Below are positions 708 through 23,081 of a stretch of 32,032 nucleotides of DNA, piece by piece. Where the stretch lies: positions 1 through 32,032 of the IMG/VR virus record IMGVR_UViG_3300028392_001695; one strand, written 5' to 3'. Within the stretch, counting starts at the first letter, position 1, and each line of letters begins with the position of its first letter. This DNA is from a virus. Under the pieces are notes generated by a model, which did no database searches, was not told the origin of the DNA, and saw only the letters and a program-made list of their open reading frames with translations. The translations under genes were made by a program, and so were the position numbers.

Positions 708-722
708 TAAGGAGGAAATGAA

Positions 723-1505: not shown

Positions 1506-1512
1506 TAAATTT

Positions 1513-1543
1513 AGAATACAAGTAATTACTTGTATTCTTTTTT
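1513..1543 (+). terminator. Intrinsic terminator after the major tail gene
   Basis: GAATACAAG (1514-1522) and CTTGTATTC (1529-1537) form a 9-bp stem with a short loop, followed by six T residues. It lies directly after the stop of the putative major tail protein and separates it from the endonuclease gene. Confidence 0.8.
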
Positions 1544-1585
1544 AAGCTTATAAAAATTAAATTATAAGCTTAAAAAAGAATACAA
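1530..1585 (+). repeat. 24-bp perfect inverted repeat overlapping the terminator
   Basis: Bases 1530-1553 are perfectly complementary to 1562-1585 with an 8-nt loop. The first arm contains the 3' half of the terminator stem and its T tract, so the RNA can form either the terminator hairpin or this longer hairpin, but not both. It ends three bases before the -35 box of the endonuclease promoter. Confidence 0.8.
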
Positions 1586-1587
1586 TA

Positions 1588-1616
1588 TTGACAATATTAA
1601 AAATATATCATATACT
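1588..1616 (+). promoter_or_regulatory. Sigma-A promoter of the free-standing endonuclease
   Basis: TTGACA (1588-1593), a 17-nt spacer and TATACT (1611-1616) match the vegetative consensus almost perfectly. The expected start of transcription, near 1623, falls just before the AGAGGTG ribosome binding site (1624-1630) of the gene starting at 1638, giving a very short leader. Confidence 0.75.
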
Positions 1617-1637
1617 TAATATAAGAGGTGATAATAA

Positions 1638-2387
1638 ATGAATAAAAAAACAAATGAAGAATTTATTAATGAAATTTATAACTTAGTAGGAGATGAATAT
1701 TCTATTTTAAGTGAATATGTAAATGCTAAGACTAAGGTTCTAATAAGACATAATGATAAATGTGGATATGAATATTTTATAATTCCTAATAGTTTCACGT
1801 GTGGAGTAAGATGTCCTAAATGTGCGAAATGTATTAAGAAAACAACAGAACAATTTAAACAAGAAATTTATGATTTAGTTGGAAATTCTTATACCGTATT
1901 AGGAGAATATATTGGTGCTAAGAATAAAATAAAGATAAAACACAATGATGGTTGTGGACATATATATGAGGTAAATCCTACTAACTTTATACATTCTTTA
2001 AATAAATGTCCTAGACACAAAGAGTCTAAAAATGAAAATATAATATCTAAATATTTAAATAATTTAAATATAAATTATAAAACTCAATATAAATTTGAAA
2101 ATTGTAAAAATAAAAGGTGTTTGCTATTTGATTTCGCTTTGTTTGATAATGAAGAAAATTTAATTTGTTTAGTTGAATATGATGGAGAACAACATTTTGA
2201 TGTTATGAGATTTTCTAAAAATATAAATAAACAAAATTCTAAATTTACTCAAGTTAAAGAGCATGACAAAATCAAAAATGATTACTGTAAAGCAAACAAT
2301 ATCACGCTAATAAGAATACCATACTTTCAAAAATCTAAAATTGAAGAAATATTAAATCGCAGATTAAATAGACTAATAAATAACTAA
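1638..2387 (+). CDS. Free-standing EDxHD (Vsr-like) homing endonuclease
   Basis: This 249-residue protein has two tandem N-terminal repeats of about 57 residues (5-62 and 69-124), each with the pattern Glu-Phe-x(3)-Ile-Tyr, an Ala-Lys-x-Lys strand, HND-x-CG and a cysteine-rich end. These resemble the DNA-binding repeats that accompany phage endonucleases (DUF723-like). The C-terminal half holds a nuclease domain with E133, D165 in FDFAL, the EYDGEQHF motif (180-187) and the HDKIKNDYC helix (209-217). This layout fits the EDxHD homing endonucleases typified by I-Bth0305I. The gene has its own promoter and terminators on both sides, is not inside an intron, and separates the major tail gene from the sugar cassette, so it looks like an independent mobile unit. 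Its target is unknown. A site in an endonuclease-free allele of this intergenic region is the usual expectation. Confidence 0.85.
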   Translation: MNKKTNEEFINEIYNLVGDEYSILSEYVNAKTKVLIRHNDKCGYEYFIIPNSFTCGVRCPKCAKCIKKTTEQFKQEIYDLVGNSYTVLGEYIGAKNKIKIKHNDGCGHIYEVNPTNFIHSLNKCPRHKESKNENIISKYLNNLNINYKTQYKFENCKNKRCLLFDFALFDNEENLICLVEYDGEQHFDVMRFSKNINKQNSKFTQVKEHDKIKNDYCKANNITLIRIPYFQKSKIEEILNRRLNRLINN

Positions 2388-2402
2388 ATAACTAAATAAA
2401 TC

Positions 2403-2436
2403 AATATAGGGCAAAATTTTAAGCCTTATATTTTTT
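2403..2436 (+). terminator. Intrinsic terminator after the endonuclease gene
   Basis: ATATAGGGC (2404-2412) pairs with GCCTTATAT (2423-2431, one G-U pair) and is followed by T residues to 2436. It ends the transcript of the free-standing endonuclease gene. Confidence 0.7.
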
Positions 2437-2438
2437 AA

Positions 2439-2464
2439 TCCAATAAAACGAAAATTTTATTGGA
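2439..2464 (+). repeat. 10-bp perfect hairpin in the sugar-cassette leader
   Basis: TCCAATAAAA (2439-2448) and TTTTATTGGA (2455-2464) form a perfect stem with a 6-nt loop. No T tract follows, so it is not a clear terminator in either direction. It may be an operator or an RNA leader structure. Confidence 0.5.
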
Positions 2465-2473
2465 AATAATCTC

Positions 2474-2500
2474 AAACCCTTTTAAATAAAGGGTTTATTT
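2474..2500 (+). terminator. Hairpin with T-rich tail before the first glycosyltransferase
   Basis: AAACCCTTT (2474-2482) pairs with AAAGGGTTT (2488-2496), followed by ATTTTA. It is the third consecutive hairpin between the endonuclease gene and the gene at 2525, so that gene either depends on read-through or has a weak promoter that I could not identify. Confidence 0.55.
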
Positions 2501-2524
2501 TACGTGTGAAAAGGGGAAATTATA

Positions 2525-3430
2525 ATGAATAAATTTTCAACTATATTTTTGACTGCACCTATACATAATAGAGCATGGATTCTTCCAGATTGGTTAAAAC
2601 ATATTTTAAACCAGAATTATCCAAAGCAAAATATAGAAATGTATTTTTTAGTAAATAATTGTACGGATAATTCACTCGAAATATTACAGGAATTTAAATT
2701 TAAATATGAAAATGAATATAAAAAAATCACAATAGATATAATGAATAATAAAAACTCTATAAAAAAACAATATAAAGATGAGAGAACTACTGAAACAAGA
2801 GATAAAATGTATCATTGGTTATCTGAATTAAGAAATAAAACATTGGATAAATTTGTAGAATCCGATTGTGATTTATATTTTAGTTTAGATTCTGATATAT
2901 TAATTAAAGAAGATTGTATTACTAGATTTTTAGAACATGAATTTGACTATTTAAGTAATTTAATTTATAATGGTTATAAGCATGAAAATATGGATTATTT
3001 AATACAAGAATCAGATGGAAAAGATTTAGAATCAAAGATTAATAATGCAAGAAAAAAATATATGAATATACTTCAAAATTTTAATTTTGAAACAGCATAT
3101 AAATTTCCAAACGTATTAAAAAGAGTAGGAATAGATAATTACCAACATATATGTAATAATAGAATAAAAAATCCACATAAATGTGATAGAAATTATAAAA
3201 TGGAAGTAGATTATACTGGTGCTATATTTATGGTAAATAGAAAGATTGCAGAGAATAAAAATTGTAGATTTAATTATCATAAAACTGGAGAAGATGAATA
3301 TTTTTGCAGGATGGTTAGAAAAGAAGGTTTCAAAATAGAATGTTTAGTTTCAAGTTTTCAATGTCATATAATGGATAAAGGATTATTGCCATTATATTAT
3401 CAAGGTAAACTAAACATAGAAAATAATTGA
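2525..3430 (+). CDS. Glycosyltransferase, GT-A fold (GT2-like)
   Basis: This 301-residue protein is expected to be a cytoplasmic nucleotide-sugar transferase. The N-terminus (FLTAPIHNRAWILPDWL) and the VNNCTDNS strand-turn around 43-50 fit the donor-binding half of a GT-A fold. A DSD metal-binding motif (122-124) lies in SLDSDIL. The C-terminal TGEDEYFCR (about 254-262) looks like the acidic catalytic segment of such enzymes. No membrane segment is visible. It is the first gene of the sugar cassette. The start is preceded by an AAGGGG ribosome binding site. Donor and acceptor cannot be read from the sequence. The promoter for the next gene overlaps its stop codon, so it may be expressed separately from the rest of the cassette. 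Confidence 0.8.
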   Translation: MNKFSTIFLTAPIHNRAWILPDWLKHILNQNYPKQNIEMYFLVNNCTDNSLEILQEFKFKYENEYKKITIDIMNNKNSIKKQYKDERTTETRDKMYHWLSELRNKTLDKFVESDCDLYFSLDSDILIKEDCITRFLEHEFDYLSNLIYNGYKHENMDYLIQESDGKDLESKINNARKKYMNILQNFNFETAYKFPNVLKRVGIDNYQHICNNRIKNPHKCDRNYKMEVDYTGAIFMVNRKIAENKNCRFNYHKTGEDEYFCRMVRKEGFKIECLVSSFQCHIMDKGLLPLYYQGKLNIENN

Positions 3431-3455
3431 TATTGATTAATCAATATAGTATAAT
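3427..3455 (+). promoter_or_regulatory. Sigma-A promoter of the main sugar cassette
   Basis: TTGATA (3427-3432), a 17-nt spacer and TATAAT (3450-3455) form a near-consensus promoter overlapping the stop of the first glycosyltransferase. The predicted start lies near 3462. A hairpin (3453-3459 with 3467-3473) would sit at the start of the leader, ahead of the AAAGGGG site of the gene at 3497. Confidence 0.7.
3430..3447. promoter_or_regulatory. 18-bp perfect palindrome inside the promoter spacer (possible operator)
   Basis: ATATTGATTAATCAATAT is a perfect palindrome filling almost the whole spacer between the -35 and -10 boxes. This is the classic place for a dimeric repressor to block RNA polymerase. 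No such regulator is encoded in the window. The role is inferred from position and symmetry. Confidence 0.5.
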
Positions 3456-3496
3456 TAAGGTAAGAACTTAATTTAGAGAGAAAAGGGGAACTAAAA

Positions 3497-4522
3497 ATGA
3501 ATAAAAAAATAAATATTACCTATTGTTTGACTATCCCATTTTTGTTTGAATATCAGCAAAGACCTCATCACATAATGAAATTATTATCTCAGACAGGAGA
3601 TTATAATGTGCATTGGGTAAACAATATACAAGTAAAAGGTAAACGCAAAGATGAAATTAACGAAAATCTTACAGTTTGGCATGATTACGATATATTTAAA
3701 AAAAGAGTTCCAAATATAGATGTTCTATTTTCAAGCTGGAGTAAAACACATATATTAGTAGAAGATTTAAAACCTAAAATAGTTTTATATGATTCATTAG
3801 ATAATTTTCCTGAGAATCAAAATGAAGAAGAGGATATGATTTCTAAAGCAGATATATTATTAACAACATCTCAACCTCTTTATGATTTAAGAAAAAATCA
3901 GCATGAAAACATTCATATGTGTAGAAATGCTTGTTTTCCAGAGTTAGGTGAAAAGCAATATGATGTTCCAGATATTATTACACAAGCTAGAAAAATGGGA
4001 CAACAAATAGTTTTATTCTCAGGTGCAATTGGTAGTTGGGTTGACTTAGAAATATTAGAACATGTATCACATTCAGACAAATATGTTGTTATGATAGTAG
4101 GAAGTTCATTTGGAGTTCCACAAAATTTATTACCTAAGAATTTAGTTTATCTTGGCACAAAGAAATATGAAGAATTACAAGCATATTATCAACATTGTGA
4201 TGTTACATTATTACCATTTAAAAGAAATGTAGTTGCAGATTTTTCTAATCCGATTAAAATGTTTGAGTCATTGAGTTTTGGAAAACCAGTAATAGCAACT
4301 AATATACCTGAAGCTTGTATATTTCCAGATAACACAATATTTGTAAGTAGAAATAAAGAAGAGTTTAGACAAAATGTAAATAAAGCTTTAAAGGTTTGTA
4401 AAAATGAAGAAGTAATTAATAAATGCAAAGAAGTAGCCAGAGAAAACTCATGGAAATCAAGAGTAGATATAATTGACAGAGAAATAAAAAGATTTATAAA
4501 TGCTAAAGGAATTGCGATATGA
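3497..4522 (+). CDS. Glycosyltransferase, GT-B fold (GT4, TuaH-like)
   Basis: This 341-residue protein has the two-domain layout of GT4 enzymes. The N-terminal domain has YQQRPHHIM (19-27), typical of TuaH-like transferases, and VLYDSLDNFPE (96-106). The C-terminal domain has the donor-binding FSGAIGSWVD (174-183) and the EX7E-type region SNPIKMFESLSFGKPVIATNIPE (250-272), with E257 as the likely nucleotide-sugar ligand. No signal peptide or membrane segment is seen, so it should work in the cytoplasm. It has its own promoter and leader and overlaps the next gene by 4 nt (ATGA), showing translational coupling. Donor sugar and acceptor are unknown. Confidence 0.85.
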   Translation: MNKKINITYCLTIPFLFEYQQRPHHIMKLLSQTGDYNVHWVNNIQVKGKRKDEINENLTVWHDYDIFKKRVPNIDVLFSSWSKTHILVEDLKPKIVLYDSLDNFPENQNEEEDMISKADILLTTSQPLYDLRKNQHENIHMCRNACFPELGEKQYDVPDIITQARKMGQQIVLFSGAIGSWVDLEILEHVSHSDKYVVMIVGSSFGVPQNLLPKNLVYLGTKKYEELQAYYQHCDVTLLPFKRNVVADFSNPIKMFESLSFGKPVIATNIPEACIFPDNTIFVSRNKEEFRQNVNKALKVCKNEEVINKCKEVARENSWKSRVDIIDREIKRFINAKGIAI

Positions 4523-5499
4523 AAAAGGTATTATTTCTTAATCCATCAGCACTTATAAGATATGGTATTAGATGGGGATTTGAAAAGTTAAATTGGGAAA
4601 CTTATGTATTATCTGGTGATGATTTTATAGCAAGTAAATCAATTCAATTTCAAGTTGGTACGATAAATAAATATATAGAAACCTATAAAATTGATTTGGT
4701 ATTTGTGGAATTTATGGCAGGATTAGATTATGAATCAATACATAATCTATGTAAATCTAAGGGTATACCATTTTATGTTTGGCTTATAGAGGATGTTCCT
4801 AGCTATACGGATTTTGGTTCTAGTGTAATTGATTGTACCGATTATGTATTTACAACATGTATTGAGTTAATTCCATTTTATAAATCAAGACATAATAGAG
4901 ATTGTAAGTTATTAACATTTGGAGTTAATCCAGAATTTCACAAACCATCAAATCCAAATAAAGATTTGTATAAATCTGATATAGTAGCTATAGGAAACAA
5001 TTATCCATCAAGATATGATAAAATGAAATGGTTCTTAGAAACATTAATAAATCATAAATATGATATAAGTGTATATGGTGGAGCTTGTTGGATAGAAAGC
5101 CATAGATGGTTTAATATATTTAATCACAAAGAATTGTACAAAGGTTATTTATCTTATGAACAGTTACCTGTGATATATAATACTTGTAAAATAGCACTTG
5201 GCATGAATTGTAATGATAAATCTATGACTCAAATGTCAATGAGAATGTATGAATTTATGGGTTGCACAGACAATTCCTTAATGTTATCTTTCTATACTAA
5301 ATCACAAGAAAATGTATTTGGTGATAGAATATATTTACCTAAGAACGAACAAGAAACAATTGATATGGCAAATGAAATTCTGAATATGAAAGACGAATAT
5401 AGAATACAAAAAGCAAAAGATAATAGAGAATGGGTATATAAAAATCATTCTTATATTGATAAAGCTAAAACTGTAATTGATACATTTGAAGGGAGATAA
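4519..5499 (+). CDS. Glycosyltransferase, CgeB/YkvP-like
   Basis: This 326-residue protein resembles the CgeB family of GT-B transferases. Visible features are the N-terminal strand KKVLFLNPSALIRYG, the WLIEDVP motif (88-94) where this family has an Asp-rich Pro motif, SDIVAIGN (153-160) opening the second domain, YKGYLSYEQLPVIY (207-220) and the conserved RMYEFMGC stretch (242-249). In Bacillus, CgeB is linked to glycosylation of the spore crust. In phages such proteins are usually annotated as glycosyltransferases of unknown acceptor. It overlaps the previous gene by 4 nt and runs into the next gene, whose ribosome binding site (GAAGGGAG) lies in its last codons, so the three are translated together. 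Confidence 0.8.
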   Translation: MKKVLFLNPSALIRYGIRWGFEKLNWETYVLSGDDFIASKSIQFQVGTINKYIETYKIDLVFVEFMAGLDYESIHNLCKSKGIPFYVWLIEDVPSYTDFGSSVIDCTDYVFTTCIELIPFYKSRHNRDCKLLTFGVNPEFHKPSNPNKDLYKSDIVAIGNNYPSRYDKMKWFLETLINHKYDISVYGGACWIESHRWFNIFNHKELYKGYLSYEQLPVIYNTCKIALGMNCNDKSMTQMSMRMYEFMGCTDNSLMLSFYTKSQENVFGDRIYLPKNEQETIDMANEILNMKDEYRIQKAKDNREWVYKNHSYIDKAKTVIDTFEGR

Positions 5500-5503
5500 T
5501 AGT

Positions 5504-6175
5504 ATGAAGAAAATTTATATGCTATTTGCTACTATTAGACCTAAGATGTTTAGAGAAACTTATGAACATTGGATTAATACAGCTAAAAACAAAGACAATA
5601 TAATAACAAAAGTAGCTGTGACAAGTGAAGAACAAAAAGAAGAATTATCAGATTTTGATGTAATAGTTGTAAATGATAAAAAAGGTTACAATCATGCTAG
5701 TTGTGTTTTACTTAAAAGCATAGATGTAAATGATGATGATATAATTATATTACCTTCAGATGATTTTTATTCACCTCAAGACTGGGATGAATTTTTATTA
5801 AATCAATTTGAAAACTATGATGGATGTATGTTTTTAAATGATGGCTACCAAAACCCTGATATTAAAGAAGGTATGTTGTCAATAACAATTGCATGTATGA
5901 CATTTGCAACGGTTAAAAAACTTAATAGAAGTTTATTTAGTTCTGCATATAGACATTTCTTTTCTGATACTGAATTATATGCTACTCTAAAAGAATTAAA
6001 TTTATTAAAAGATGATAGAGATAAATATAAAGATGTTATATTTGAACATAAACACCACGTATTAGGTAAAAGAAAACAAGACGAACATGATATTAATAAT
6101 ATGAGCAATTGGGATGTTGACCACAAGACATTTCAAGATAGAATGGCTATGAAAGTAGAAGATAGATTAAAATAG
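5504..6175 (+). CDS. GT-A-like glycosyltransferase (short)
   Basis: The ATG at 5504 (MKKIYMLF) is chosen because GAAGGGAG lies about 10 nt upstream; the earlier in-frame ATG at 5477 would lie inside the previous gene without a site. The protein has 223 residues. FATIRPKMFRETYEHWI and the DDDIIILPSDDFYSP segment (77-91), with an SDD metal-type motif at 85-87, suggest a GT-A fold. The C-terminal part, with an EHKHHVLGKRKQDEHD segment, is charged and could hold the acceptor site. It is shorter than most GT2 enzymes. The function as a transferase is likely but less certain than for its three upstream neighbours. Confidence 0.65.
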   Translation: MKKIYMLFATIRPKMFRETYEHWINTAKNKDNIITKVAVTSEEQKEELSDFDVIVVNDKKGYNHASCVLLKSIDVNDDDIIILPSDDFYSPQDWDEFLLNQFENYDGCMFLNDGYQNPDIKEGMLSITIACMTFATVKKLNRSLFSSAYRHFFSDTELYATLKELNLLKDDRDKYKDVIFEHKHHVLGKRKQDEHDINNMSNWDVDHKTFQDRMAMKVEDRLK

Positions 6176-6190
6176 AGAAAAGGTGATTTT

Positions 6191-6655
6191 ATGAGTCCAA
6201 TAGTAAGTTTTATAGAAGATGAATTATATAAGAAAATCAAAGCATCAGTTCCAATATTTTGTATGGATTTAATAATTAGATGTGATAATAAAATTCTATT
6301 AATTAAAAGAGATAGAGAACCAGCTAAAAATGAATTTTGGACTCCTGGTGGGAGATTTTTATATGGTGAATCTATTAGTCAAGGTGCAGTAAGAAAAGCT
6401 AAAGAAGAAACTGGATTAGATTGTAATTTTATAAAAATGTTAGATATTTGTAATATGTATTTTACTAAAACAGGAAATATGACATCTGATGTTCATACTC
6501 CTAGCTTAATAATAGAAATGGAAGTTGCATTAGGTAATCAAAAAGTTCAATTAGATAATCTTCATTTAGATTATAAATGGGCAGAAAAAAATTCTATTAA
6601 ATATCATTTATATGTACAAGAAATATTAAATAAGGCAGGTTTATCATATGAATAA
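6191..6655 (+). CDS. Nudix hydrolase, GDP-mannose mannosyl hydrolase-like
   Basis: This 154-residue protein has the N-terminal signature of the GDP-mannose mannosyl hydrolases (Gmm/WcaH): a VPIFCMDLIIR strand, LLIKRDREPAKNEFW and then TPGGR. The Nudix box runs from G54 to L76 (GX5EX7R...EEXGU). Its first glutamate after Arg68 is replaced by Lys69, while E72 and E73 are kept. Gmm enzymes also deviate from the canonical box at that place, which supports the assignment. The known reaction is release of mannose or glucose from the GDP-sugar. In E. coli the gmm gene lies beside fcl, as here, where the stop overlaps the start of the fcl-like gene by 8 nt. It could control GDP-sugar pools for the cassette. 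Confidence 0.75.
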   Translation: MSPIVSFIEDELYKKIKASVPIFCMDLIIRCDNKILLIKRDREPAKNEFWTPGGRFLYGESISQGAVRKAKEETGLDCNFIKMLDICNMYFTKTGNMTSDVHTPSLIIEMEVALGNQKVQLDNLHLDYKWAEKNSIKYHLYVQEILNKAGLSYE

Positions 6656-7580
6656 AGATTCTAAAATCTATGTCACAGCAAAAGATGGAATGGTTGGAAG
6701 TGCAATAATAAGAGAATTATTAAAACAAGGATATTCTAATATTATAACACGTTCTAAAAATCAATTAGATTTGTTGAATAAAGAAAAGGTTAAAGAATTT
6801 TTATCATATGAAAAACCAGATTATATATTTTTATGTAGTGCTAAAGTAGGAGGTATTGTCGCAAATAATACTTATCCTGTTGATTTTCTTTATGATAACA
6901 TGATGATAGAATTTAATGTAATTAAATCGGCGTATGAATGTGGTATTAATAATTTAATGTTCTTTGGTTCTAGTTGTATATATCCTAAATTTTGTGATAT
7001 TCCTATTAAAGAATCTTATTTAATGACAGGAAGTTTAGAGTCTACAAATGAAGCTTATGCACTAGCTAAAATAAGTGGAATTAAATTATGTCAAGCATAT
7101 AATAAACAATATGGAACTAAATATATAACAGTTATGCCATGTAGTTTATATGGTGAAGGTGACAATTTCCATCCTGCAAATAGTCATTTAATACCAGCTC
7201 TAATTCAAAAAATACATAATGCTAAAAAAAATAATTTAGATAGCGTTGAACTTTGGGGAACTGGTAATCCATTAAGAGAATTTTTGTATATAGATGATTT
7301 AGCGAATGCCTGTATATTCTTAATGAAAAGACATTTAACTTTAGAAAATGATATAATTAACATTGGAAGTGGAATTGATTATACAATCAAGAATATTGCT
7401 AATTTAATTAAATATATGATAGGTTATGAAGGTGAAATTAAATTTGACACTACTAAACCAGATGGAACATTTAGAAAGTTAATAGATTCAAATATAATAA
7501 AAAGATTAGGATGGAAATATCAAATTTCTTTAAGAGATGGATTAGAAAAGATATATAAGTTCTGGTTGACAAAGGAGTGA
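6648..7580 (+). CDS. fcl: GDP-L-fucose synthase homologue (Fcl/WcaG family)
   Basis: This 310-residue short-chain dehydrogenase/epimerase has nearly all family signatures: SAKVGGIVANN, GSSCIYPK, NEAYALAKISG, NFHPANSHLIPALI, GTGNPLREFLYIDDLA, NIGSGIDYTI and KPDGTFRKL. By alignment to the E. coli enzyme, the catalytic residues S108, C110, Y137, K141 and H180 are present, so 3,5-epimerisation and NADPH reduction of a GDP-4-keto-6-deoxy sugar should be possible. The dinucleotide-binding loop reads AKDGMVG instead of the usual GHRGMVG, so the first glycine of GxxGxxG is Ala11. The expected partner Gmd, which makes the substrate from GDP-mannose, is not in the window. The host or another part of the genome must supply it, or a related GDP-sugar is used. 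Confidence 0.88.
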   Translation: MNKDSKIYVTAKDGMVGSAIIRELLKQGYSNIITRSKNQLDLLNKEKVKEFLSYEKPDYIFLCSAKVGGIVANNTYPVDFLYDNMMIEFNVIKSAYECGINNLMFFGSSCIYPKFCDIPIKESYLMTGSLESTNEAYALAKISGIKLCQAYNKQYGTKYITVMPCSLYGEGDNFHPANSHLIPALIQKIHNAKKNNLDSVELWGTGNPLREFLYIDDLANACIFLMKRHLTLENDIINIGSGIDYTIKNIANLIKYMIGYEGEIKFDTTKPDGTFRKLIDSNIIKRLGWKYQISLRDGLEKIYKFWLTKE

Positions 7581-13748: not shown

Positions 13749-14223
13749 TTCTAATAAAAAAGAATTAGAAGATTTTATGAATGCAACCATCTTAAAAGTA
13801 GCATTAATTGACATTGCAAAACAAGTTGAAGTGTTGATAAGAGATTATATAAAGAAAAATTTATATGATACTTATGAACCCAAAAATTATGTAAGAAGTT
13901 ATGATTATATAAATTCTTTAACAATAGGCAAAGTTAAACCTGATGGAAATGGATTTAGTATAAGACTTTATTTCGATGCAAATAAGATAAAACCTCAAGA
14001 GATGGAAAGAGGATTGTGGAATCGACATATGACACAAAAAGGAGTTCCAACAAATGAGTTTATAGCTGACTGGATTGAAAATGGTGCTACAGATAGCGAG
14101 CATGCTAGGAAACCAATCCATGTTATGGCTAATATCAAAAAGGAATTAGAAGAAACAAAACTTCATGTTAGAGCTATAAAAAAGGCTCTTGGAGAGAAGG
14201 GGTTTAAGGTGGCAATTCTATGA
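13738..14223 (+). CDS. Putative tail-completion/neck protein (HK97 gp10-like)
   Basis: This 161-residue protein has a helical N-terminus (FMNATILKVALIDIAKQVEV), a YVRSYDYINSL segment, a short beta region and GLWNRH followed by ADWIENG. This order resembles the HK97 gp10-type head-tail or tail-completion proteins. The position after the chaperone rather than before the tail-tube gene is unusual for that family, so the assignment is tentative. Its last codons overlap the start of the recombinase gene (ATGA), so both are made from one transcript. Confidence 0.45.
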   Translation: MPSFSNKKELEDFMNATILKVALIDIAKQVEVLIRDYIKKNLYDTYEPKNYVRSYDYINSLTIGKVKPDGNGFSIRLYFDANKIKPQEMERGLWNRHMTQKGVPTNEFIADWIENGATDSEHARKPIHVMANIKKELEETKLHVRAIKKALGEKGFKVAIL

Positions 14224-15182
14224 GTGATAGAAAGTATACAGTATATGCAACAACAGAAAGACTTCATCAAGTTAATCCATTAAATTCTGATTTATGGAAG
14301 AAGTATTTAATGGGAAAGAGAACATTAAGTAAAACTACAAAAGATAGTTATGAATCTGATATAAACCAATTTTTTGTTTATATATTATTGAATCATGATA
14401 ATAAATTCATATTCGATATACCTATGGAAGAAATGGCTGATATATTAGATGATTATATTTGTATGTGTGCTTCTGTATTTGAAAATAATGATAGAAGATT
14501 GGCAAGAAGATTATCTGCAATTTCATCAATCTATTTATACTTTAAAAAGAAAAGAAAAATAAAAGACAATCCTGTTGAATTAATAGAAAGACCTAAAATT
14601 CAAAAGGGAAAGTTTGATATGAAACAAACCTTTTTAACAAAAGAACAAGTTGAAATTATAAGAGAAAAACTAGAAGATTATGGAAAGACTCAATTAAAAT
14701 TATTCTTTGAATTAGGTTTATACACAATGGCTAGAGTTAATGCTTTAGCTAATATAAAAATTGAAGATATAGATTTGGAAAAAAATAGAATAGAAAATGT
14801 AATTGAAAAAGAAGGATATGAAGTCGTTCTTATGTTTAATGAAAAATGTAAAGAATTAATTGTTAAATGGATAGAGGAAAGAAAAGAAGCTGGAATCGAA
14901 TGCGATTTGTTATTTATAACAATTACAAGAGATAAGAAAGGCAAGAATGCAAAATCTTCTATGCAGGAAACATGGATTAAAAGGATAGGAAGTTTTATTG
15001 ATTCTAATTTGCATTGTCACGATTTACGTCATAGTGGAGCTAATTTATTGTATCAAGCAGGTATGCCATTAGAAAGAGTTTCTAAGGCATTAAATCATAG
15101 AGGTACACAAGTTACACAAGACCATTATTTACAAATAAACCATGACGAATTACAAGAGGAATTGGAAAAATTTAGCGTATAA
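14220..15182 (+). CDS. Tyrosine recombinase (phage integrase family)
   Basis: This 320-residue protein has an N-terminal SAM-like core-binding domain (about 22-110) and a catalytic domain (about 135-315). The full active-site set is visible: R172 in TMARVNALAN, K197 in the beta-hairpin, H267 and R270 in HCHDLRHSG, H293 in LNHRGT and the nucleophile Y303 in DHYLQ. It should cut and rejoin DNA at short inverted sites through a 3'-phosphotyrosine. It overlaps the upstream tail gene by 4 nt and has no promoter of its own, so it would be made with late tail proteins. That is odd for an integrase. No matching recombination sites or excisionase were seen nearby. It could be a resolvase, an invertase or a captured mobile gene. 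Confidence 0.9.
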   Translation: MSDRKYTVYATTERLHQVNPLNSDLWKKYLMGKRTLSKTTKDSYESDINQFFVYILLNHDNKFIFDIPMEEMADILDDYICMCASVFENNDRRLARRLSAISSIYLYFKKKRKIKDNPVELIERPKIQKGKFDMKQTFLTKEQVEIIREKLEDYGKTQLKLFFELGLYTMARVNALANIKIEDIDLEKNRIENVIEKEGYEVVLMFNEKCKELIVKWIEERKEAGIECDLLFITITRDKKGKNAKSSMQETWIKRIGSFIDSNLHCHDLRHSGANLLYQAGMPLERVSKALNHRGTQVTQDHYLQINHDELQEELEKFSV

Positions 15183-15241: not shown

Positions 15242-16090
15242 TTGGCGGATAATATAGAACTTATAATTAAGGCAGCCTTAGACAAACAATCTATGCGAAA
15301 CATGGAAGATGATGTTAAAAAGGTTGCTAGTAAGATAGAAAAGCAAAGTCCAGTTAAAATAAAAGCTGATTTGAAAGTTTTTATAAATGAACAAGATATA
15401 AAAAACTATCAAACTAAAATGGACAACATGATGACCAACTTAAAAACTAAGTATGGTACTGTATTAGATAATCCTAAATTTAAATCTGATTTAGATAATT
15501 TAAATAAACAGTTAAGTAGTATGTCTATTGGTAAAACAATGAAGTCTGACTTAACATCTACTAATTCTCAGTTTCAAACTTTATCAACTAATGTAAAGAA
15601 AACGGCAAAAGAAGTTAAAGATGCTAAAGGTGCATTTAGTGATTTCTATGATGATATGGACAAGAACACATCGAAGATGTTATCTTGGTCAATTCTTGGT
15701 GGAGTTATCTATGGCGTTTTTAATCAGATTAAAGATGGTATTACATATGTAAGAGATATGGATTCTGCTTTAACTGACTTATCTAAAGTTGTAGATTTAT
15801 CAAGTTCTCAATTGAATATGATGAAAGATACTGCTATTAATTTAGGCAAAGAATTAGGTAAGTCTAGTATTGACATCATGAATTCTATGGCTGAATTTGG
15901 TCGAGTAACTAAAGATACTGCTGAAATCATTGAACTTACAAAATCTGCTGCAATTACTTCGAATGTAACTTCATTATCAGCAGCAGACGCAGCAAAAGCT
16001 TTAAATACTACAATGATAGCTTTTGGTATGGGTGCTAAAGATTCAATGAAGATTTTGGATTCTTGGAATGAGATTCAAAATAATTTCCGT
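15242..16090 (+). CDS. Tape-measure protein, exon 1
   Basis: The first exon encodes about 283 residues and ends exactly at codon CGT (R of NNFR). The TTG at 15242 (MADNIELIIKAALDK) is preferred, since the GTG at 15230 sits only one base after AAAGGAG; both are in frame. The N-terminal helices (coiled coil, about 1-130) and the DMDSALTDLSKVVDL...AFGMGAKDSMKILDSWNEIQNNF region are the conserved TP901-type tape-measure core. Without splicing, translation would run into the intron and stop at 16123 after 11 foreign residues. The spliced product of exons 1-4 has about 1,876 residues and sets tail length, and is injected or rearranged during DNA entry. The missing motif VSAED continues in exon 2 at 17689. 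Confidence 0.92.
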
Positions 16091-16207
16091 AAATTATGCG
16101 GAATAAAAATTCTTTCTAATTGACTTGGAGTTCCTATAGTAGGATAACAAGGGGCAAGGTTTAAAATTTTATTAATTCGATATTATAAAAAATTATTTTA
16201 TTTTATA

Positions 16208-16236
16208 TTTACAAAACAATTAAAAAAATATATAAT
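16208..16236 (+). promoter_or_regulatory. Possible sigma-A promoter inside intron 1
   Basis: TTTACA (16208-16213), a 17-nt spacer and TATAAT (16231-16236) precede the AAAGGAGGTG ribosome binding site of the intron endonuclease. The expected transcript would start just before that site, the same short-leader layout as for the free-standing endonuclease at 1638. The region is very AT-rich, so chance matches are possible. Confidence 0.45.
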
Positions 16237-16258
16237 TATATTAAAAGGAGGTGAAGTA

Positions 16259-17155
16259 ATGAGTAAAATGTCTTATGAAGAAATGTGTTCTAAAATAAAA
16301 TCTAAAAAATGTATTCCTATATTTTCACAGGAAGAATGGCAAGGTGTAAGGAAAAATGGCATTATATTAAAATACTGGTTTCAAGATGAATCAGGGCATA
16401 ATTTTTACGCTAGATATGATAATGTTGCATCTGGTCATAAGACTCAATGTAATGAATGTGGAAAATTAAATCAATTAAATAAACAAAAATTATCAGAATT
16501 AGAATATAAAAAATATAATGAATCTTTTATTTTAAATAAAAATATTAAAATATTAAGTAAATATGATGATTATAAAAATGTGGAACAAAAATTATTATGC
16601 AAGTGTTTAACATGTAATAATGATTTTTATGAAAATATAAATAATATTATAAAAAAATCTTCACATGGATGTATTAGAATGCCACATGGTGAAAAAATAG
16701 TTATTTCTATATTAGAAGAAAATGCAATAAAATATAATTATCAATCATATATTTCTGAATTAAATTTAACATCTGATTTTGAAATTTATTTAAAAAATGG
16801 AAATATTATTCATTTAGAAATAGATGGCGACCAACACTATGATTTTCCAAATGAATTTCATAAAACATATGAAGATTTTTTAAAATCAAAAAACAGAGAT
16901 ATTTTAAAAGATGAATGGTATTCTAAAAATAATAATATAAATATTCATATAAGATATAATTTAGGTGGAAAAAATAATGAAAATTTAGAAGAAATATTAT
17001 ATGATATTATAAAAGGTAAATATGGAAAATGTGAAAATAAAATAAAAAATTCAGATTTTAATATTATGGATTTTTCTAAAAATGATTCAAAATGCAAAAA
17101 AATAATAGCATATAATTTAGATGGTTATTTTTTAAAATATATAATAGTGCATTAG
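16259..17155 (+). CDS. Intron-encoded Vsr-like (EDxHD) homing endonuclease, 0-frame part
   Basis: This 298-residue product starts at ATG after a strong AAAGGAGGTG. It has cysteine pairs that may bind zinc (CNEC at 64-67; CKCLTC at 114-119), then a nuclease domain with SDFEIYL (172-178), LEIDGDQHY (186-194) and NRDILKDEWY (212-221). These are the same motifs as in the protein at 1638. From about residue 279 a NUMOD1 DNA-binding repeat begins (IIAYNLDGYFLK) but the frame breaks at 17128-17134 and ends after a short unrelated tail. The rest of the repeat continues in the -1 frame to 17475. If the frame is restored the protein has 405 residues. The expected target is the intronless NNFR/VSAED junction of the tape-measure gene. 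Confidence 0.85.
   Translation: MSKMSYEEMCSKIKSKKCIPIFSQEEWQGVRKNGIILKYWFQDESGHNFYARYDNVASGHKTQCNECGKLNQLNKQKLSELEYKKYNESFILNKNIKILSKYDDYKNVEQKLLCKCLTCNNDFYENINNIIKKSSHGCIRMPHGEKIVISILEENAIKYNYQSYISELNLTSDFEIYLKNGNIIHLEIDGDQHYDFPNEFHKTYEDFLKSKNRDILKDEWYSKNNNINIHIRYNLGGKNNENLEEILYDIIKGKYGKCENKIKNSDFNIMDFSKNDSKCKKIIAYNLDGYFLKYIIVH
17128..17134 (+). other. U UUU UUA slippery heptamer at the endonuclease frame break
   Basis: In the 0 frame the codons are TAT TTT TTA AAA, so the heptamer T TTT TTA is in the register needed for -1 frameshifting. Slipping back one base after TTA gives AAA ATA TAT AAT AGT, which continues the NUMOD1 repeat without loss. No clear stimulatory hairpin is visible downstream. 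A one-base deletion in the following A run would look the same. Confidence 0.5.
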
Positions 17156-17475
17156 AAGCTGAAAAAGATTTGAACGTAGATAATTCTTGTATCTCAACCT
17201 GTTTAAATGGTAGAAAAAATAGAGAAAAACAAGGAAGAGCAGGAAATTATATGTTTAGATTATATGAAGATAATTTTCCATTAAATATTGAACCATATAA
17301 AACATCAAGATGTAAAATTATATTAATTTATAAAAATGATGTAATTATAGAAGAATGTAATTCTTTAAATGAAGTTTCTAAAAAATATGAAATATCAAGA
17401 ACAAATCTTTGTAGATATATAAAAAAAGATTTTGAAAAAAAATACAAAAATATTTATAATTTTAAATATAAATAA
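17134..17475 (+). CDS. Endonuclease C-terminal NUMOD1 region in the -1 frame
   Basis: In this frame the sequence reads KIYNSALEAEKDLNVDNSC and then ISTCLNGRKNREKQGRAGNY, which completes the NUMOD1 helix-turn-helix-like repeat begun by IIAYNLDGYFL in the frame above. A second, weaker repeat follows (IILIYKNDVIIEECNSLNEV, then SKKYEISRTNLCRYIKKD). The TTG at 17170 could serve as a separate start but has no good ribosome binding site. This is therefore best read as the end of the endonuclease, reached by -1 frameshifting, or as the severed end of a frameshifted pseudogene. Confidence 0.6.
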   Translation, partial: KIYNSALEAEKDLNVDNSCISTCLNGRKNREKQGRAGNYMFRLYEDNFPLNIEPYKTSRCKIILIYKNDVIIEECNSLNEVSKKYEISRTNLCRYIKKDFEKKYKNIYNFKYK

Positions 17476-17688
17476 TATCGAATTAATAAAATTTTAAACA
17501 AGCCTGAACGACTAAACGAAAGAACTATATTTATATATAGATGTGATAGTCTGAACTCTCCTATAAACTATTTAAAAAGGGAGAGAGTTGTGGTCGAATG
17601 TAAAGACATTCTTAGAAGAACCATAACCACTTATATTAAAATATAAGTCAGTAGTCTAATAAAATATTAGACGAAAGTAACAGAAATG

Positions 17689-17703
17689 GTAAGTGCAGAG
17701 GAT
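17689..17703 (+). CDS. Tape-measure protein, 15-nt exon 2
   Basis: GTAAGTGCAGAGGAT encodes V-S-A-E-D, exactly the residues missing between NNFR of exon 1 and LAGAIGKVG of exon 3 in the conserved tape-measure motif. The first four bases can form P10 with intron 1. The last four (GGAT) form P1 of intron 2 with GTCC (17711-17714). Only seven bases of the exon are thus free of splice-site pairing. Confidence 0.88.
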
Positions 17704-18006
17704 AAATTATGTCCCATATGTTGGTGATGATATATGAAAACCCAGAATATGCGAGAAGTTCCTAAGAGCCTTGATTACTAAATTATATAAGAAATTATAT
17801 AATGGCAATGGGTAATGCCAAAGGTATAGTAAAAAGATTAAGGATTGGATAATTCGCAGAGATAGACCTAAGATGTTAAGTCATGGTAAGCTCCCAACGA
17901 CTACCAATGGGTATCTAAATATTATTTAGATAATGGTATAGTCTACTCCGATTTGTAAATTTTATTTATAAATGTTTAAAATATCTCGAAAGAGACGGTA
18001 TAAAGG
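17704..18006 (+). ncRNA. Group I intron 2 of the tape-measure gene
   Basis: This 303-nt intron has no reading frame. P1: GGAT (17700-17703) with GTCC (17711-17714), ending in a U-G pair. P7: GACTA (17899-17903) with TAGTC (17939-17943). P8: ATCTAAAT (17913-17920) with ATTTAGAT (17924-17931). A GCGA/TCGC pair upstream can form P4. A TCTC-GAAA-GAGA hairpin lies near the 3' end. The last base is G18006. Its first eight bases (AAATTATG) equal those of intron 1, but its short 3' end differs. Confidence 0.88.
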
Positions 18007-18117
18007 TTAGCAGGTGCAATAGGCAAAGTCGGAAGTGTAGCAAAACAGAGTGGTACAAGCCTTCAATCACTTGAAGGATATGTAACAGCCATCGTGTCAG
18101 CGAGTGGTGTAACGGGT
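18007..18117 (+). CDS. Tape-measure protein, exon 3
   Basis: This 111-nt exon encodes 37 residues, LAGAIGKVGSVAKQSGTSLQ, then SLEGYVTAIVSASGVTG. This is the central part of the conserved tape-measure domain and joins in frame to VSAED before it and DVAGTALKS after it. Both borders fall between codons. Confidence 0.92.
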
Positions 18118-18425
18118 TAATAAAAAATGGCTCGAGGATATAGTAATATATCTATGGAATCTCACTATATCGGTGAACATCCTACTGAAAAGTTCAGAGG
18201 ACAATACCGAGGTAAGGATTTAAAATTTAAATTCGCACCGTAACGACTACACGTGGGACATCCTGAATTATCAGGATGAAGATATAGTCTAAACTGTATA
18301 GTAATATACAGAAAAATGGTCGAGTGTAAAGACACTCAGTTTAATTTATTAAACGATAGAAGCACCATTTTCGCTATGATTATTAATCATAGTCAGTAGC
18401 CTTATTAGGTGAAAGTAATAGTTTG
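18118..18425 (+). ncRNA. Group I intron 3 of the tape-measure gene
   Basis: This 308-nt intron has no reading frame. P1: CGGGT (18113-18117) with GCTCG (18130-18134), with a U-G pair at the splice site. P7: GACTA (18245-18249) with TAGTC (18285-18289). P8: CATCCTGA (18259-18266) with TCAGGATG (18271-18278). The 3' domain (about 18316-18425), with a GGTCGAGTGTAAAGACACTC hairpin and AGTCAGTAG...GAAAGTAA, closely matches the 3' domain of intron 1. The last base is G18425. Confidence 0.9.
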
Positions 18426-21400
18426 GATGTCGCAGGCACAGCACTTAAATCAGTAATGTCAAGGATTTTCCAAGTAGGACAAGAAGGCGTTGATGATGCT
18501 GGGAAATCCGAGAAACTACTAAATCAACTTGGAATAACAACTAGAAAAAGTGCAACAGAATTTAAAACATTTGATGATATACTTAAAAGTGTACATGATA
18601 AATTCCCTAGTTTAACATCAGTTCAACAACAGAATTTATTGCAACAACTCGCAGGAATCCAACATGTAGGCAAATTAACTTCGTTAATGAATAACTGGGA
18701 TATAGCAACACAAGCAACAACGAAAGCATTAAATTCACAAGGATCAGAAATAAATGAAAATGAAAAATATCTAAATAGTATACAAGGCAAATATCAAACA
18801 TTAAAAACTACAGTTGATGGGTTATATGACAAATTAATTTCATCAGACGCTTTAAAATCAACAGTAACGGGAATGACAGATGTTTTAAATGTTGCTGATA
18901 GAGTTACAACTGTATTGGGTGGTTTAAATACCATTATATTAACTGTTGTTTCTAGTTTAGGAATATTAAAAGCACAAGGAATAATTAATTTCTTCACTAG
19001 TCTTGTAACATCAGTTGCAGGAGCAACATTTTCTTTGGCTGGATTAGGCACTGTACTCACAGCTATAATAAGCCCAGTGGGTTTATTAATAACGGTATTA
19101 GGTCTAGCAACAGCAGGAACAATTGCTTACGTTAATAGTACACAAAAAATTAAAGAACAAGCTGAATTAGCTACTAAATCTCAAGATGACTTTAACAAAA
19201 GTATAAAAGAGTTCACTGAAACTTTAGACCCAAATAAATTAAATGACGCCTCTACTGCTTTAGAAAAACTTAAAGAAGCGACTAATTATAAAGAAGCTAT
19301 CGAAAACGTAAAAGGTTTAGAAGCTGAAATAAAAAATCTTCAAGAAGCACAATCTAAAGAGATTATGCCAGAAGATATAAGTTCTATTAACGAAAAAATT
19401 AAAGAAAAAACAGCTTTATTACAAGAACAAAAAAAGATTATAGATGATGTAGCAGGTAAAGAAAAAGATTATGCACATCAAAAAGAAATATCTACAGCTA
19501 TAGATTATCAATCTATACAGGCAAAAGCTAAAACTGTAGCTCTTAAAGTTCAAGAAACTAATGAAAATTATAATCTAGTTCAAAGTTATAAGAATGTATA
19601 TGATAAATTATCTGCAAATAAAGAATTAACTGAGGATGAAAAGGCTTTAAACGAAAAGTTATTGCAACAATATCCTGAATATAGAACTGCATTAGGAGAT
19701 AAAGCTAAAGCATTAGGAGTGAATTATACTGCATTAAGTGAAAATTTAGATATACAAAAGAAAGTAGCTTTAGCAGAATTTAATAGTGCAAAAGTATCAG
19801 CTCAACAGGAAGTTATAAAAACAAATAATTTAATTGACGAAACTAAAAAAAGAATAGAAGCAATTCAATCTGAAATAAAAGCCAAAAGCAATCTGGCATC
19901 TGCTCAGGATAAATTAGAAGATAGTTTAGGTAAATCTTTTGAGATGATGCAACAGAAAACTCTTGATTGGGAAAAGTCTTTGGGTATAGTTTCTGACAAA
20001 AAGATAATAGATTTTACAACTCCAGGAAGAAAAAATGAAAATGAACAACTTAATCAAGCATTAGCAGATAACCAAAATTTATTAGACAAACTTGAATTAA
20101 GTAAATCTTCTAATAAGATATTGTCTGAAGCAAATATAAAAGACGTTTTAAGTATATCGGCAGATTCTAAAGCAAAAGGTTATAATACTCTTGAAGCTGA
20201 ACAAACAAGAAAAGAGCAAGAAAAAGCTGATAAAAAAGCAGCACAAGAAGCAGAGAGAGAAAGAAAAAAACAAGAAGCTGAAGCAGAAGCATATAGAAAA
20301 AAAGCAGAACAAGAAAAATATAATTCTGAAAGAGAAACGGCATTAGGAACAAAAGTAGATTTAGCTAGAGAAGCAGGATATGATAAATTAACACAAGCAG
20401 TAAAAAGTTATGATGTAGCATTATCTGAAAATCAAGCTAATCAGGAAAAAGACAATTTGTCATTGCAGGATAAATTATCTTTAATGGAAGAAGAAAAAGA
20501 TTTATTAAAAAGTAAATGGAAAGCCTATAATGATTTAATCTGGCAAAAAAGACAAGAGCGTGAAGAAACGGCTAAATCATTAGCTCAATTTGGAGTTGGT
20601 GTTGGTGGAAAAGGTGAATCATCTTATCTTACAAATGTAGATGAATCAGCAAAAGCACAACAAGAAAAAATTAGAAAATCGGCAGAAGATATACATGATG
20701 AAGCTTCTTTAAGAGCATATAAAACTGAAGTTGCAAGAGGAGAAGTTTTAAAAAGCTTAGTAAAAACCTTTGGCGATTTAAACCCTGAAATATCAGGTTA
20801 TAGTATAAATTTAAATAAAATAACTGGAACTATAAATAAATTAAATCCTGAAGTTGAAGTAGCAAATCAAGAGTTTAAAGATTTTGATAAAACCATAAAA
20901 TCTAATAATGAAAACATGGCGACATTAAAAGATAATTATGATTCAATATCTGATACTGATTTTGATACTAAGATAAAAGCGGGAAATGATTTACTTGATG
21001 CACAGACTTCTAGTTTAGATGTTGTAAATAAAAAGTTATCAGAATATGATGCTAAAATAAAATCAGCAATGACAACTGAAGCTAAGGAATTATATCAAGC
21101 TGAAAAAGATAAATATACTTCAACTGGAGCAGGAATATCAAAAGATATTGTATCTACAAAAAAAAATATATCACAGTTAACTTTTGAAAAAGGCGAAGCA
21201 CCTTTCAAAGAATCGGAAAAAGCATATGAAAAAGCGAGTCAAGATTTAGAATATAAATATGAGATGATAGACGAAAAGAACTATAAATCAAGAGCGAGGA
21301 ATTTAAATGTTCAAGCTAGTGTTTTAAAAGGTGAAACTAAATCTATATCTAGTGAAATAAAAAGACTCAAAGATGATTTAGCTAAAACAGAAGATAAAGA

Positions 21401-23081
21401 TGAACAGGCTAGAATAAATACAAGCATTGCAAATAATGAAAAACTTCTACAAGAAAAGAATGTTAAAATAAAAGATTTAACTAAGTCTGCTTTAGGAGAA
21501 ACTATATCTGGTTCATTTAAAAAATCTGATGACGAAGCTAAAAAATTTGACAAAACAATTAGTGGATTAGATAATAGTTTTCAATTATTAAGTGATAATG
21601 ATTTTGTAGGTAAGGGTAATATCCTTTCCGAAAAAATAAATAAAACTAATACTGAAATATCTAAGCAACAAAAAGAATTAACAGATTTAAATAGCATAAC
21701 GGATAAATCAGTCCTTAATTCACAAGAATATAAAGATAAATTAGAAAATCTTAAAAGTTCACTTGAAGCTAATAAAATAAGCGTAAAAGGATATAATGAT
21801 GAACTTAAAAGTTTAAATAAAACTCAAGAAGATAACATTCAAAATTTAATAAGAACTGGAATTGAAGCTCAAAAAAATATTGAAGAATCTCCTATTAAAT
21901 CTAAAGAAGAAGAATTAGCAACACAAACTAGAGTTATGGAGAGAGAATTTCATAAAGAAGAAGTAAAATTAAAACAGGATTTATTAAATTTAGAAAAAAA
22001 AATATATGGAACAACTAAAGCCAATTATGAAGATAACATTAAAAATATAACAACAGATTTACAAAATCAAATTGATGCTATGCAAACACAAGCAGATTTA
22101 CAAAAACAACAAGAAGAAAGGTCTGCTAAAATACTTGAAATCGAAAAGGAAAAGTTAAACCTATCTAATTTACAAGCTGAAAAAGACGTAAGAATTTTTC
22201 AAGATGGTAAATGGCAATGGGTGGCTGACCCTAAAAAGGTTACTGAACAAAAAGATAAGATTACTAAGCTAACTGATGATTTTAATAAATCTGAAGCTGA
22301 CAATACTTTAAAATCACAAGAAGATGCTTTAAAGTCTAAAATTGATAATTATAATAAAGAACTAGAAATTAAAAATAAAAATTATGATGACCAATCTAAG
22401 GCTTTGGAGGATTTGTTACAGAAATATAAAGATAGATGGGAAACGGAAAAATACGATAGAACCATTGCAATAGAAGATGAAAGAATAGCATTTGAGAATA
22501 GATATAAAAATCTTGACGTTATGGTTGCAAATTCTTTAGACCAATTAAAGAAAACCTATGGAACTAAATGGAATGAAATTTTAACAGTTGTAACAGATAA
22601 AACATCTAAAATTCAAATACAATATAATACCTTACAAGGATATTCAAATGTATTGACAGGAGTTGATGTTTCAACAGTTGCTACAAAAAGTGGAAATACA
22701 GGAGTTTCACAAGCTGAATTTAATGCACAACAAGAGAAAAACAAAGAAGCACAATCTGGAAAACATGGAGTAAGATATAATGTAGATGGAACTATTCAGG
22801 CTTATGCTACAGGTGGATTAAACGAAACTACTGGTATACATATGCTACATGGAACAAAAGAAAAACCAGAATTAGTATTAAATTCAGGCGACACACAAAA
22901 TATGTTAGAAATGTTAAAAGTTGCAAGACAAACAAATGTAAGTCAATCAAATATAGGTTTAAATTCAACTTCTACAACTTCAACAAAAGTTGAAAATTAT
23001 AATATAAATGTAGGCGAAGTAGTAACAAATGATGCAACAGCTTTTATACAAAATTTAAGGAATTTAGCAATAAAGAAATAA
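18426..23081 (+). CDS. Tape-measure protein, exon 4
   Basis: This exon encodes 1,551 residues and the stop. It begins DVAGTALKSVMSRIFQVGQ, completing the conserved domain. A hydrophobic stretch (about 18900-19130: IILTVVSSLGIL, SLVTSVAGATFSLAGL, ISPVGLLITVLGLATA) marks the membrane-active segments usual for tape measures. The remainder is long coiled coil rich in Lys/Glu/Gln, with a diverged internal duplication around FDKTIKSNNEN (about 20880) and FDKTISGLDNS (about 21550). The C-terminus (YATGGLNETTGIHMLHGTKE, then KPELVLNSGDT) is the typical tape-measure end. The TTG at 18423 is intron sequence, not a start. Tail length should be proportional to the spliced length of about 1,876 residues. 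Confidence 0.93.
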   Translation, partial: DVAGTALKSVMSRIFQVGQEGVDDAGKSEKLLNQLGITTRKSATEFKTFDDILKSVHDKFPSLTSVQQQNLLQQLAGIQHVGKLTSLMNNWDIATQATTKALNSQGSEINENEKYLNSIQGKYQTLKTTVDGLYDKLISSDALKSTVTGMTDVLNVADRVTTVLGGLNTIILTVVSSLGILKAQGIINFFTSLVTSVAGATFSLAGLGTVLTAIISPVGLLITVLGLATAGTIAYVNSTQKIKEQAELATKSQDDFNKSIKEFTETLDPNKLNDASTALEKLKEATNYKEAIENVKGLEAEIKNLQEAQSKEIMPEDISSINEKIKEKTALLQEQKKIIDDVAGKEKDYAHQKEISTAIDYQSIQAKAKTVALKVQETNENYNLVQSYKNVYDKLSANKELTEDEKALNEKLLQQYPEYRTALGDKAKALGVNYTALSENLDIQKKVALAEFNSAKVSAQQEVIKTNNLIDETKKRIEAIQSEIKAKSNLASAQDKLEDSLGKSFEMMQQKTLDWEKSLGIVSDKKIIDFTTPGRKNENEQLNQALADNQNLLDKLELSKSSNKILSEANIKDVLSISADSKAKGYNTLEAEQTRKEQEKADKKAAQEAERERKKQEAEAEAYRKKAEQEKYNSERETALGTKVDLAREAGYDKLTQAVKSYDVALSENQANQEKDNLSLQDKLSLMEEEKDLLKSKWKAYNDLIWQKRQEREETAKSLAQFGVGVGGKGESSYLTNVDESAKAQQEKIRKSAEDIHDEASLRAYKTEVARGEVLKSLVKTFGDLNPEISGYSINLNKITGTINKLNPEVEVANQEFKDFDKTIKSNNENMATLKDNYDSISDTDFDTKIKAGNDLLDAQTSSLDVVNKKLSEYDAKIKSAMTTEAKELYQAEKDKYTSTGAGISKDIVSTKKNISQLTFEKGEAPFKESEKAYEKASQDLEYKYEMIDEKNYKSRARNLNVQASVLKGETKSISSEIKRLKDDLAKTEDKDEQARINTSIANNEKLLQEKNVKIKDLTKSALGETISGSFKKSDDEAKKFDKTISGLDNSFQLLSDNDFVGKGNILSEKINKTNTEISKQQKELTDLNSITDKSVLNSQEYKDKLENLKSSLEANKISVKGYNDELKSLNKTQEDNIQNLIRTGIEAQKNIEESPIKSKEEELATQTRVMEREFHKEEVKLKQDLLNLEKKIYGTTKANYEDNIKNITTDLQNQIDAMQTQADLQKQQEERSAKILEIEKEKLNLSNLQAEKDVRIFQDGKWQWVADPKKVTEQKDKITKLTDDFNKSEADNTLKSQEDALKSKIDNYNKELEIKNKNYDDQSKALEDLLQKYKDRWETEKYDRTIAIEDERIAFENRYKNLDVMVANSLDQLKKTYGTKWNEILTVVTDKTSKIQIQYNTLQGYSNVLTGVDVSTVATKSGNTGVSQAEFNAQQEKNKEAQSGKHGVRYNVDGTIQAYATGGLNETTGIHMLHGTKEKPELVLNSGDTQNMLEMLKVARQTNVSQSNIGLNSTSTTSTKVENYNINVGEVVTNDATAFIQNLRNLAIKK

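Follow-up and report, generated by a model that had tools for sequence, protein, structure and literature searches.

The tape-measure protein determines the length of the phage tail, and the question raised by this locus is how such a protein could be made from a gene whose conserved core is interrupted three times, with only five codons between two of the interruptions. The DNA analysed here (the window) is a whole 32,032-base IMG/VR virus record, classed as linear, which is probably a piece of a larger genome. In the reading that we favour, and which on sequence evidence we consider very probable, the tape-measure gene lies in four pieces divided by three separate group I introns, each of which would excise itself to allow synthesis of a 1,876-residue protein.

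Coding continuity across the three junctions

When the four exons (Table 1) are joined, they form an open reading frame of 1,876 codons with no internal stop, in which exon 4 is open over its full length. The exon lengths given in a preliminary description of the locus, 849, 15, 111 and 4,656 nt, proved exact (the first being counted from the TTG codon at 15242); all are divisible by three, and all three introns are in phase 0, i.e. between codons. Neither this phase nor the change of frame in the intron 1 nuclease gene figured in that description. It had also been claimed that joining rebuilds the tape-measure motif without a gap, and this is borne out by profile searches, where the joined core matches PhageMin_Tail with 112.6 bits over profile positions 2-201 of 201, as opposed to 38.5 and 29.4 bits for the pieces taken separately, and matches TIGR01760 with 150 bits. 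Exon 1 reaches position 724 of the PHROG 4211 profile and exon 4 resumes at position 768, leaving a gap of 43 positions that is consistent with exons 2 and 3, which together have 42 codons. Retention of introns 1, 2 or 3 would stop translation after 10, 7 or 0 codons, respectively. An intein was ruled out because every insert halts translation within 10 codons, and a programmed frameshift in place of introns was ruled out because it would need to cross about 2.2 kb containing group I cores.

Viral contigs were scanned with the joined protein, which identified three relatives (L003, L004 and L005); a search of genome contigs for a tape-measure relative found none. The tape-measure region is uninterrupted in L003 and L005, while L004 is uninterrupted at all three window intron sites and has an intron of its own further downstream. 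Comparison with such intronless proteins had been proposed as a check on the spliced product, and the exons of the joined protein align without gaps to all three relatives. Alignments made without exon 2, without exon 3 or without either score lower against every relative, which provides direct support for the 15-nt exon encoding VSAED. In the intronless relatives, conservation extends over exon 3 and the greater part of exon 2.

A side observation concerns a tyrosine recombinase (Phage_integrase) gene that is found in the tail module of the window (14220-15182), of L003 (1303-2313) and of L004 (2778-3782). In the window and L004 it directly precedes the tape-measure gene, and in L003 a few small genes lie between the two; an integrase conserved at this position of a tail module is unexpected.

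Table 1. Coordinates, in the window, of the exons, introns, helices and intron 1 cargo of the tape-measure gene
Feature	Position	Strand	Details
Exon 1, tape measure	15242..16090	+	TTG start, ends ..NNFR; PHROG 4211 tape measure, E 3.4e-34
Group I intron 1, 1,598 nt	16091..17688	+	Carries homing-endonuclease ORF; 3' half (17508-17686) matches L030-intron profile, E 9.4e-13
Intron 1 helices	P1 16085-16090/16098-16103; P10 16094-16097/17689-17692; P3 16110-16116/17518-17524; P6a 16160-16183/17475-17498; P7 17510-17514/17547-17551; P8 17525-17540
Perfect 24-bp inverted repeat (P6a)	16160..16183 (5' arm), 17475-17498 (3' arm)	+	Around ORF insertion
Intron 1 homing endonuclease, 298 aa	16259..17155	+	PHROG 559 (VSR-type group), E 1.2e-21, residues 32-278
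TTTTTTA heptamer, slippery phase	17128..17134	+	-1 shift joins nuclease to NUMOD1 tail, reading to 17475
Exon 2, 15 nt	17689..17703	+	GTAAGTGCAGAGGAT (VSAED); P10 and P1 pairing, joined ORF, alignment scores
Group I intron 2, 303 nt	17704..18006	+	RF00028 30.1 bits, E 4.8e-6; covariation; homologues
Intron 2 helices	P1 17700-17703/17711-17714; P3 17740-17744/17908-17912; P4 17750-17754/17854-17858; P7 17899-17903/17939-17943; P8 inside 17913-17931
Exon 3, 111 nt	18007..18117	+	LAGAIGKVG..SGVTG
Group I intron 3, 308 nt	18118..18425	+	RF00028 80.6 bits, E 3.8e-21 (18109-18311)
Intron 3 helices	P1 18113-18117/18130-18134; P3 18160-18165/18253-18258; P7 18245-18249/18285-18289; P8 18259-18278
Exon 4, tape measure	18426..23081	+	DVAGTALKS...; PHROG 4211, E 1.8e-31

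Group I cores and the cargo of intron 1

The preliminary description attributed to each intron a P1 ending in U-G, a GACTA/TAGTC P7, a P8 hairpin and a terminal G, and all of these elements were located. The P1 pairings of introns 1, 2 and 3 are UUCCGU/GCGGAA, GGAU/GUCC and CGGGU/GCUCG, all with U.G as the final pair, next to the 5' splice site; P3 and P8 occupy group I core positions around the common P7, and the last base of each intron is G (17688, 18006 and 18425). As regards a possible assignment to subgroup IA, a phage-type P7 and extra stems 3' of P7 are visible. The 15-nt exon was said to serve both of its neighbours, and it does so by pairing: its first four bases pair with bases 4-7 of intron 1 (P10, GUAA/UUAU), and its last four form P1 with intron 2.

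A mechanical P3-P4-P7-P8 descriptor, run on the window and on intron 1 with its ORF excised, found introns 2 and 3 and the ORF-less intron 1 with no other match in the window, as compared with a mean of 0.12 matches per strand in shuffled windows. The Rfam search that had been suggested gave a divided answer, in which intron 3 scores above the RF00028 gathering cut-off of 50 bits, intron 2 scores below it, and neither half of intron 1 alone has a match, as expected where 1.3 kb of ORF splits the core. Rfam scans of the whole window and of 2.5 kb gave no group I match, which is a filter effect, since intron 3 was recovered on rescanning 361 bases and intron 2 on rescanning 331 bases. For intron 2, covariation in P3, P4, P7 and P8 was tested using homologues from phage phiCDIF1296T and three contigs (L033, L034 and L035); in this family 97.2% of cells are paired and 5 pairs have changed on both sides, the covariation score was reached by 0 of 500 shuffles, and sliding the partners destroys the signal. 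A profile built solely from two introns of contig L030, which occupy other insertion sites, matches the 3' half of intron 1 and also matches intron 3 (E 0.0018). Rfam, covariation, homologous phage introns and intronless relatives support the central claim, namely that the tape-measure gene contains three group I introns.

Several features count against this reading. The P1 of intron 2 has just 4 bp, and the duplex energy of its guide is -4.7 kcal/mol with the end of exon 3 and -4.0 kcal/mol with its own site. P10, which has 4 bp in intron 1, has 2 bp in intron 2 and none in intron 3 by the pairing test, and this weakness or absence weighs on the same side, as do the sub-cut-off Rfam score of intron 2 and the lack of an Rfam match to either half of intron 1. 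The origin of the window as a 32-kb metagenomic fragment also counts against the reading, through the chance of a local assembly error.

Introns 2 and 3 contain no endonuclease gene. The endonuclease of intron 1 falls in PHROG 559, a family whose members in Bastillevirinae terminase introns have been described as VSR-type (PMC11878797), and related sequences are present in Staphylococcus phages; a pattern scan of viral contigs found no relatives of the endonuclease, comparison with PDB sequences gave no meaningful match, and a single-sequence structure model has a mean pLDDT of 33.8, too low for use. The nuclease gene is followed by a second ORF in the -1 frame (17116-17475), and the two joined match NUMOD1 (PF07453, E 6.1e-5) over positions 1-37 of 37, whereas neither ORF alone matches. 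The TTTTTTA heptamer belongs to a T6A4 run at 17128-17137. No stimulatory RNA structure is evident, and the change of frame may represent either a -1 shift, possibly programmed, or the loss of one base. The tape-measure intron of L004 also has cargo from PHROG 559, and its 3' end, like that of intron 1, matches the L030-built profile; together these likenesses point to one mobile intron family at two sites in related genes. The PHROG 559 nuclease gene could drive the spread of intron 1.

Multi-intron genes in other phages

The preliminary description treated three closely spaced introns as unusual for a phage gene, and this rarity was overstated, as there are precedents in ICP1, Twort and the Bastillevirinae and further cases in the databases. 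The tape-measure gene of the Vibrio phage ICP1 consists of four exons and three introns, as established by RNA-seq, RT-PCR and Sanger sequencing (Barth et al., 2023; PMC10448857), and resembles the window gene in having three introns, one of them with an endonuclease. When the ICP1 genome (NC_015157; L044, about 40175-41968) was re-read, two short exons, one of 8 nt (GAAGAACT) and one of 16 nt (AAAAGGTCAACTGGGT), were found to restore QVMAEELKGQLGEVMPNAM, from which we infer that these are the two middle exons. The stretch matching this junction is encoded without interruption in Vibrio phages 1.121.O and helene 12B3, and all three ICP1 introns have Rfam group I matches, one of them above the cut-off. 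The two systems differ in that ICP1 has a Gram-negative host and a tape measure of the TMP_3/TIGR02675 family, as opposed to PhageMin_Tail/TIGR01760 in the window, and in that its endonuclease is of HNH-3 type and lies in the middle intron, as opposed to the PHROG 559 VSR-type enzyme in intron 1. As to whether the same homologous codon has been hit in both, comparison of the profiles gave E 0.087, and the TMP_3 coordinates apparently do not coincide.

Another example is orf142 of the Staphylococcus phage Twort, where three group I introns are present and a 23-nt exon lies between two of them (Landthaler and Shub, 1999, as cited in PMC10136302 and PMC11878797); orf142 was later assigned to a tail tube protein, unlike the tape measure of the window. 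The window gene shares with Twort and ICP1 the pattern of a phage gene that has at least three group I introns and an internal exon shorter than about 35 nt. In the Bastillevirinae, genes have up to three introns, and some, e.g. SIOphi terL and phiNIT1 rNDPL, combine 2-3 group I introns with a small internal exon and a PHROG 559 endonuclease, although the introns of this group have been reported from genes for terminase, polymerase, thymidylate synthase and ribonucleotide reductase and not from the tape measure (PMC11878797). Sequence matches to window intron 2 were found in SIOphi. Mitochondrial exons of under about four codons occur regularly (PMC10352661), and the capsid gene of one crAss-like phage is split into five (PMC7886860), so that the number of introns, the gene invaded and the size of the mini-exon all have precedent.

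Phage introns homologous to those of the window were also found, including in the tape-measure gene of the Peptoclostridium phage phiCDIF1296T (CP011970), which has an intron homologous to window intron 2 (73%). In this gene, two introns, neither with an ORF, flank a 33-nt exon encoding EKVGTALKTIG (L007 2161-2750) and interrupt other codons of the core than those in the window. In L032 (IMGVR_UViG_2541047270_000012, 3-4050), which is related to phiCDIF1296T, the match to the tape-measure gene is broken at four points separated by short exons, which implies four introns. Three introns also interrupt this core in L030: the first lies within WNEL-Q (phase 2), the second within GTA-L (phase 1) and the third between LAG and TYH. 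The joined product is open and reads WNELQNNYRVSSED..GTALKSTLSR..LAGTYHYSK. The third of these introns and window intron 3 have similar starts and share CGGGU as their 5' target, located at different codons in the two genes; this fits guide-sequence-mediated spread to new sites, although the likeness is only suggestive. An intron at an upstream site is common to L024, L026 and L029/L005.

Two further observations were made in these records. The third L030 intron (4416-6779) includes a TnpB-like gene (OrfB_IS605, Cas12f1-like_TNB) together with another group I match, an arrangement resembling an IStron nested inside a group I intron. The 97-kb genome of Enterocloster phage CB457P1 (L009, OP172753) has several group I matches, including one of 93.6 bits and one beside nrdD.

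Splicing, its fidelity and its significance

In the mechanism that we propose, three separate group I introns would have invaded closely spaced positions in the conserved tape-measure core, and each would excise itself from the late mRNA by two transesterifications. The guide sequence would bind the last bases of the preceding exon to form P1 with its U.G, external guanosine would attack the 5' site, and the freed exon would then attack just after the terminal intron G, ultimately giving a tape-measure protein of the full 1,876 residues. For introns 1 and 3 their own exon is the best match to the guide, and in all three introns the strands of P3 pair longest with each other (5-7 contiguous pairs, as opposed to 1-4 in cross pairings). 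Cross pairing of guides is weak save for that of the intron 2 guide with the end of exon 3, which is downstream of intron 2. From this poor mutual match of guides and P3 helices we infer that each intron normally removes itself alone and that the 15-nt exon is kept.

The introns may nevertheless be real and their splicing unfaithful, such that some transcripts skip exon 2, exon 3 or both and encode proteins 5, 37 or 42 residues shorter, a possibility that we consider unlikely but deserving of some weight. Since the lengths of exons 2 and 3 are divisible by three and the introns are in phase 0, every skipped product would be in frame, and skipping is documented for the 23-nt exon of Twort orf142 and for the 34-nt exon of Coxiella 23S (PMC10136302) and is reported for SIOphi. 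The Twort exon lies between introns 2 and 3, which are highly alike, whereas the window introns differ in P1 and P3, and engineered tandem introns show less skipping where their splice-site recognition elements are unlike (PMC10136302). By analogy with these cases, splicing here would be mostly faithful and exon 2 retained; skipping would, moreover, remove a core that is conserved in the intronless relatives. That the phase-0 introns serve as a switch, with the same in-frame variants providing more than one tail form or dose, is highly improbable.

It is marginally harder still to credit that the gene is a degenerate, non-functional copy with splicing-dead introns, as the frame-shifted nuclease ORF of intron 1 and the short P1 of intron 2 might suggest, because exon 4 is fully open, the tiny exon 2 and exon 3 retain conserved residues, and three catalytic cores are intact. 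Least probable of all is an assembly artefact joining pieces of different phages; the record is indeed a metagenomic contig and a 32-kb fragment, but frames agree exactly at all three junctions, unrelated records have the same kind of architecture, and a chimera would not yield a restored, complete domain. Self-excision of three separate introns, to give one full-length protein, is the reading retained here.

The locus adds a further clear case in which group I introns have densely invaded a structural gene of a phage. Gene callers overlook such exons, as seen in phiCDIF1296T, where one tape-measure gene is annotated as two CDS for separate tail genes without intron annotation, and splicing of the ICP1 tape measure was recognised only from RNA data. 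The 15-nt exon serving two ribozymes offers a small natural system in which to ask whether neighbouring group I introns have to be removed in a set order. Taken across unrelated phages, the positions of these introns suggest that the conserved tape-measure core may be a recurrent landing zone for group I introns.
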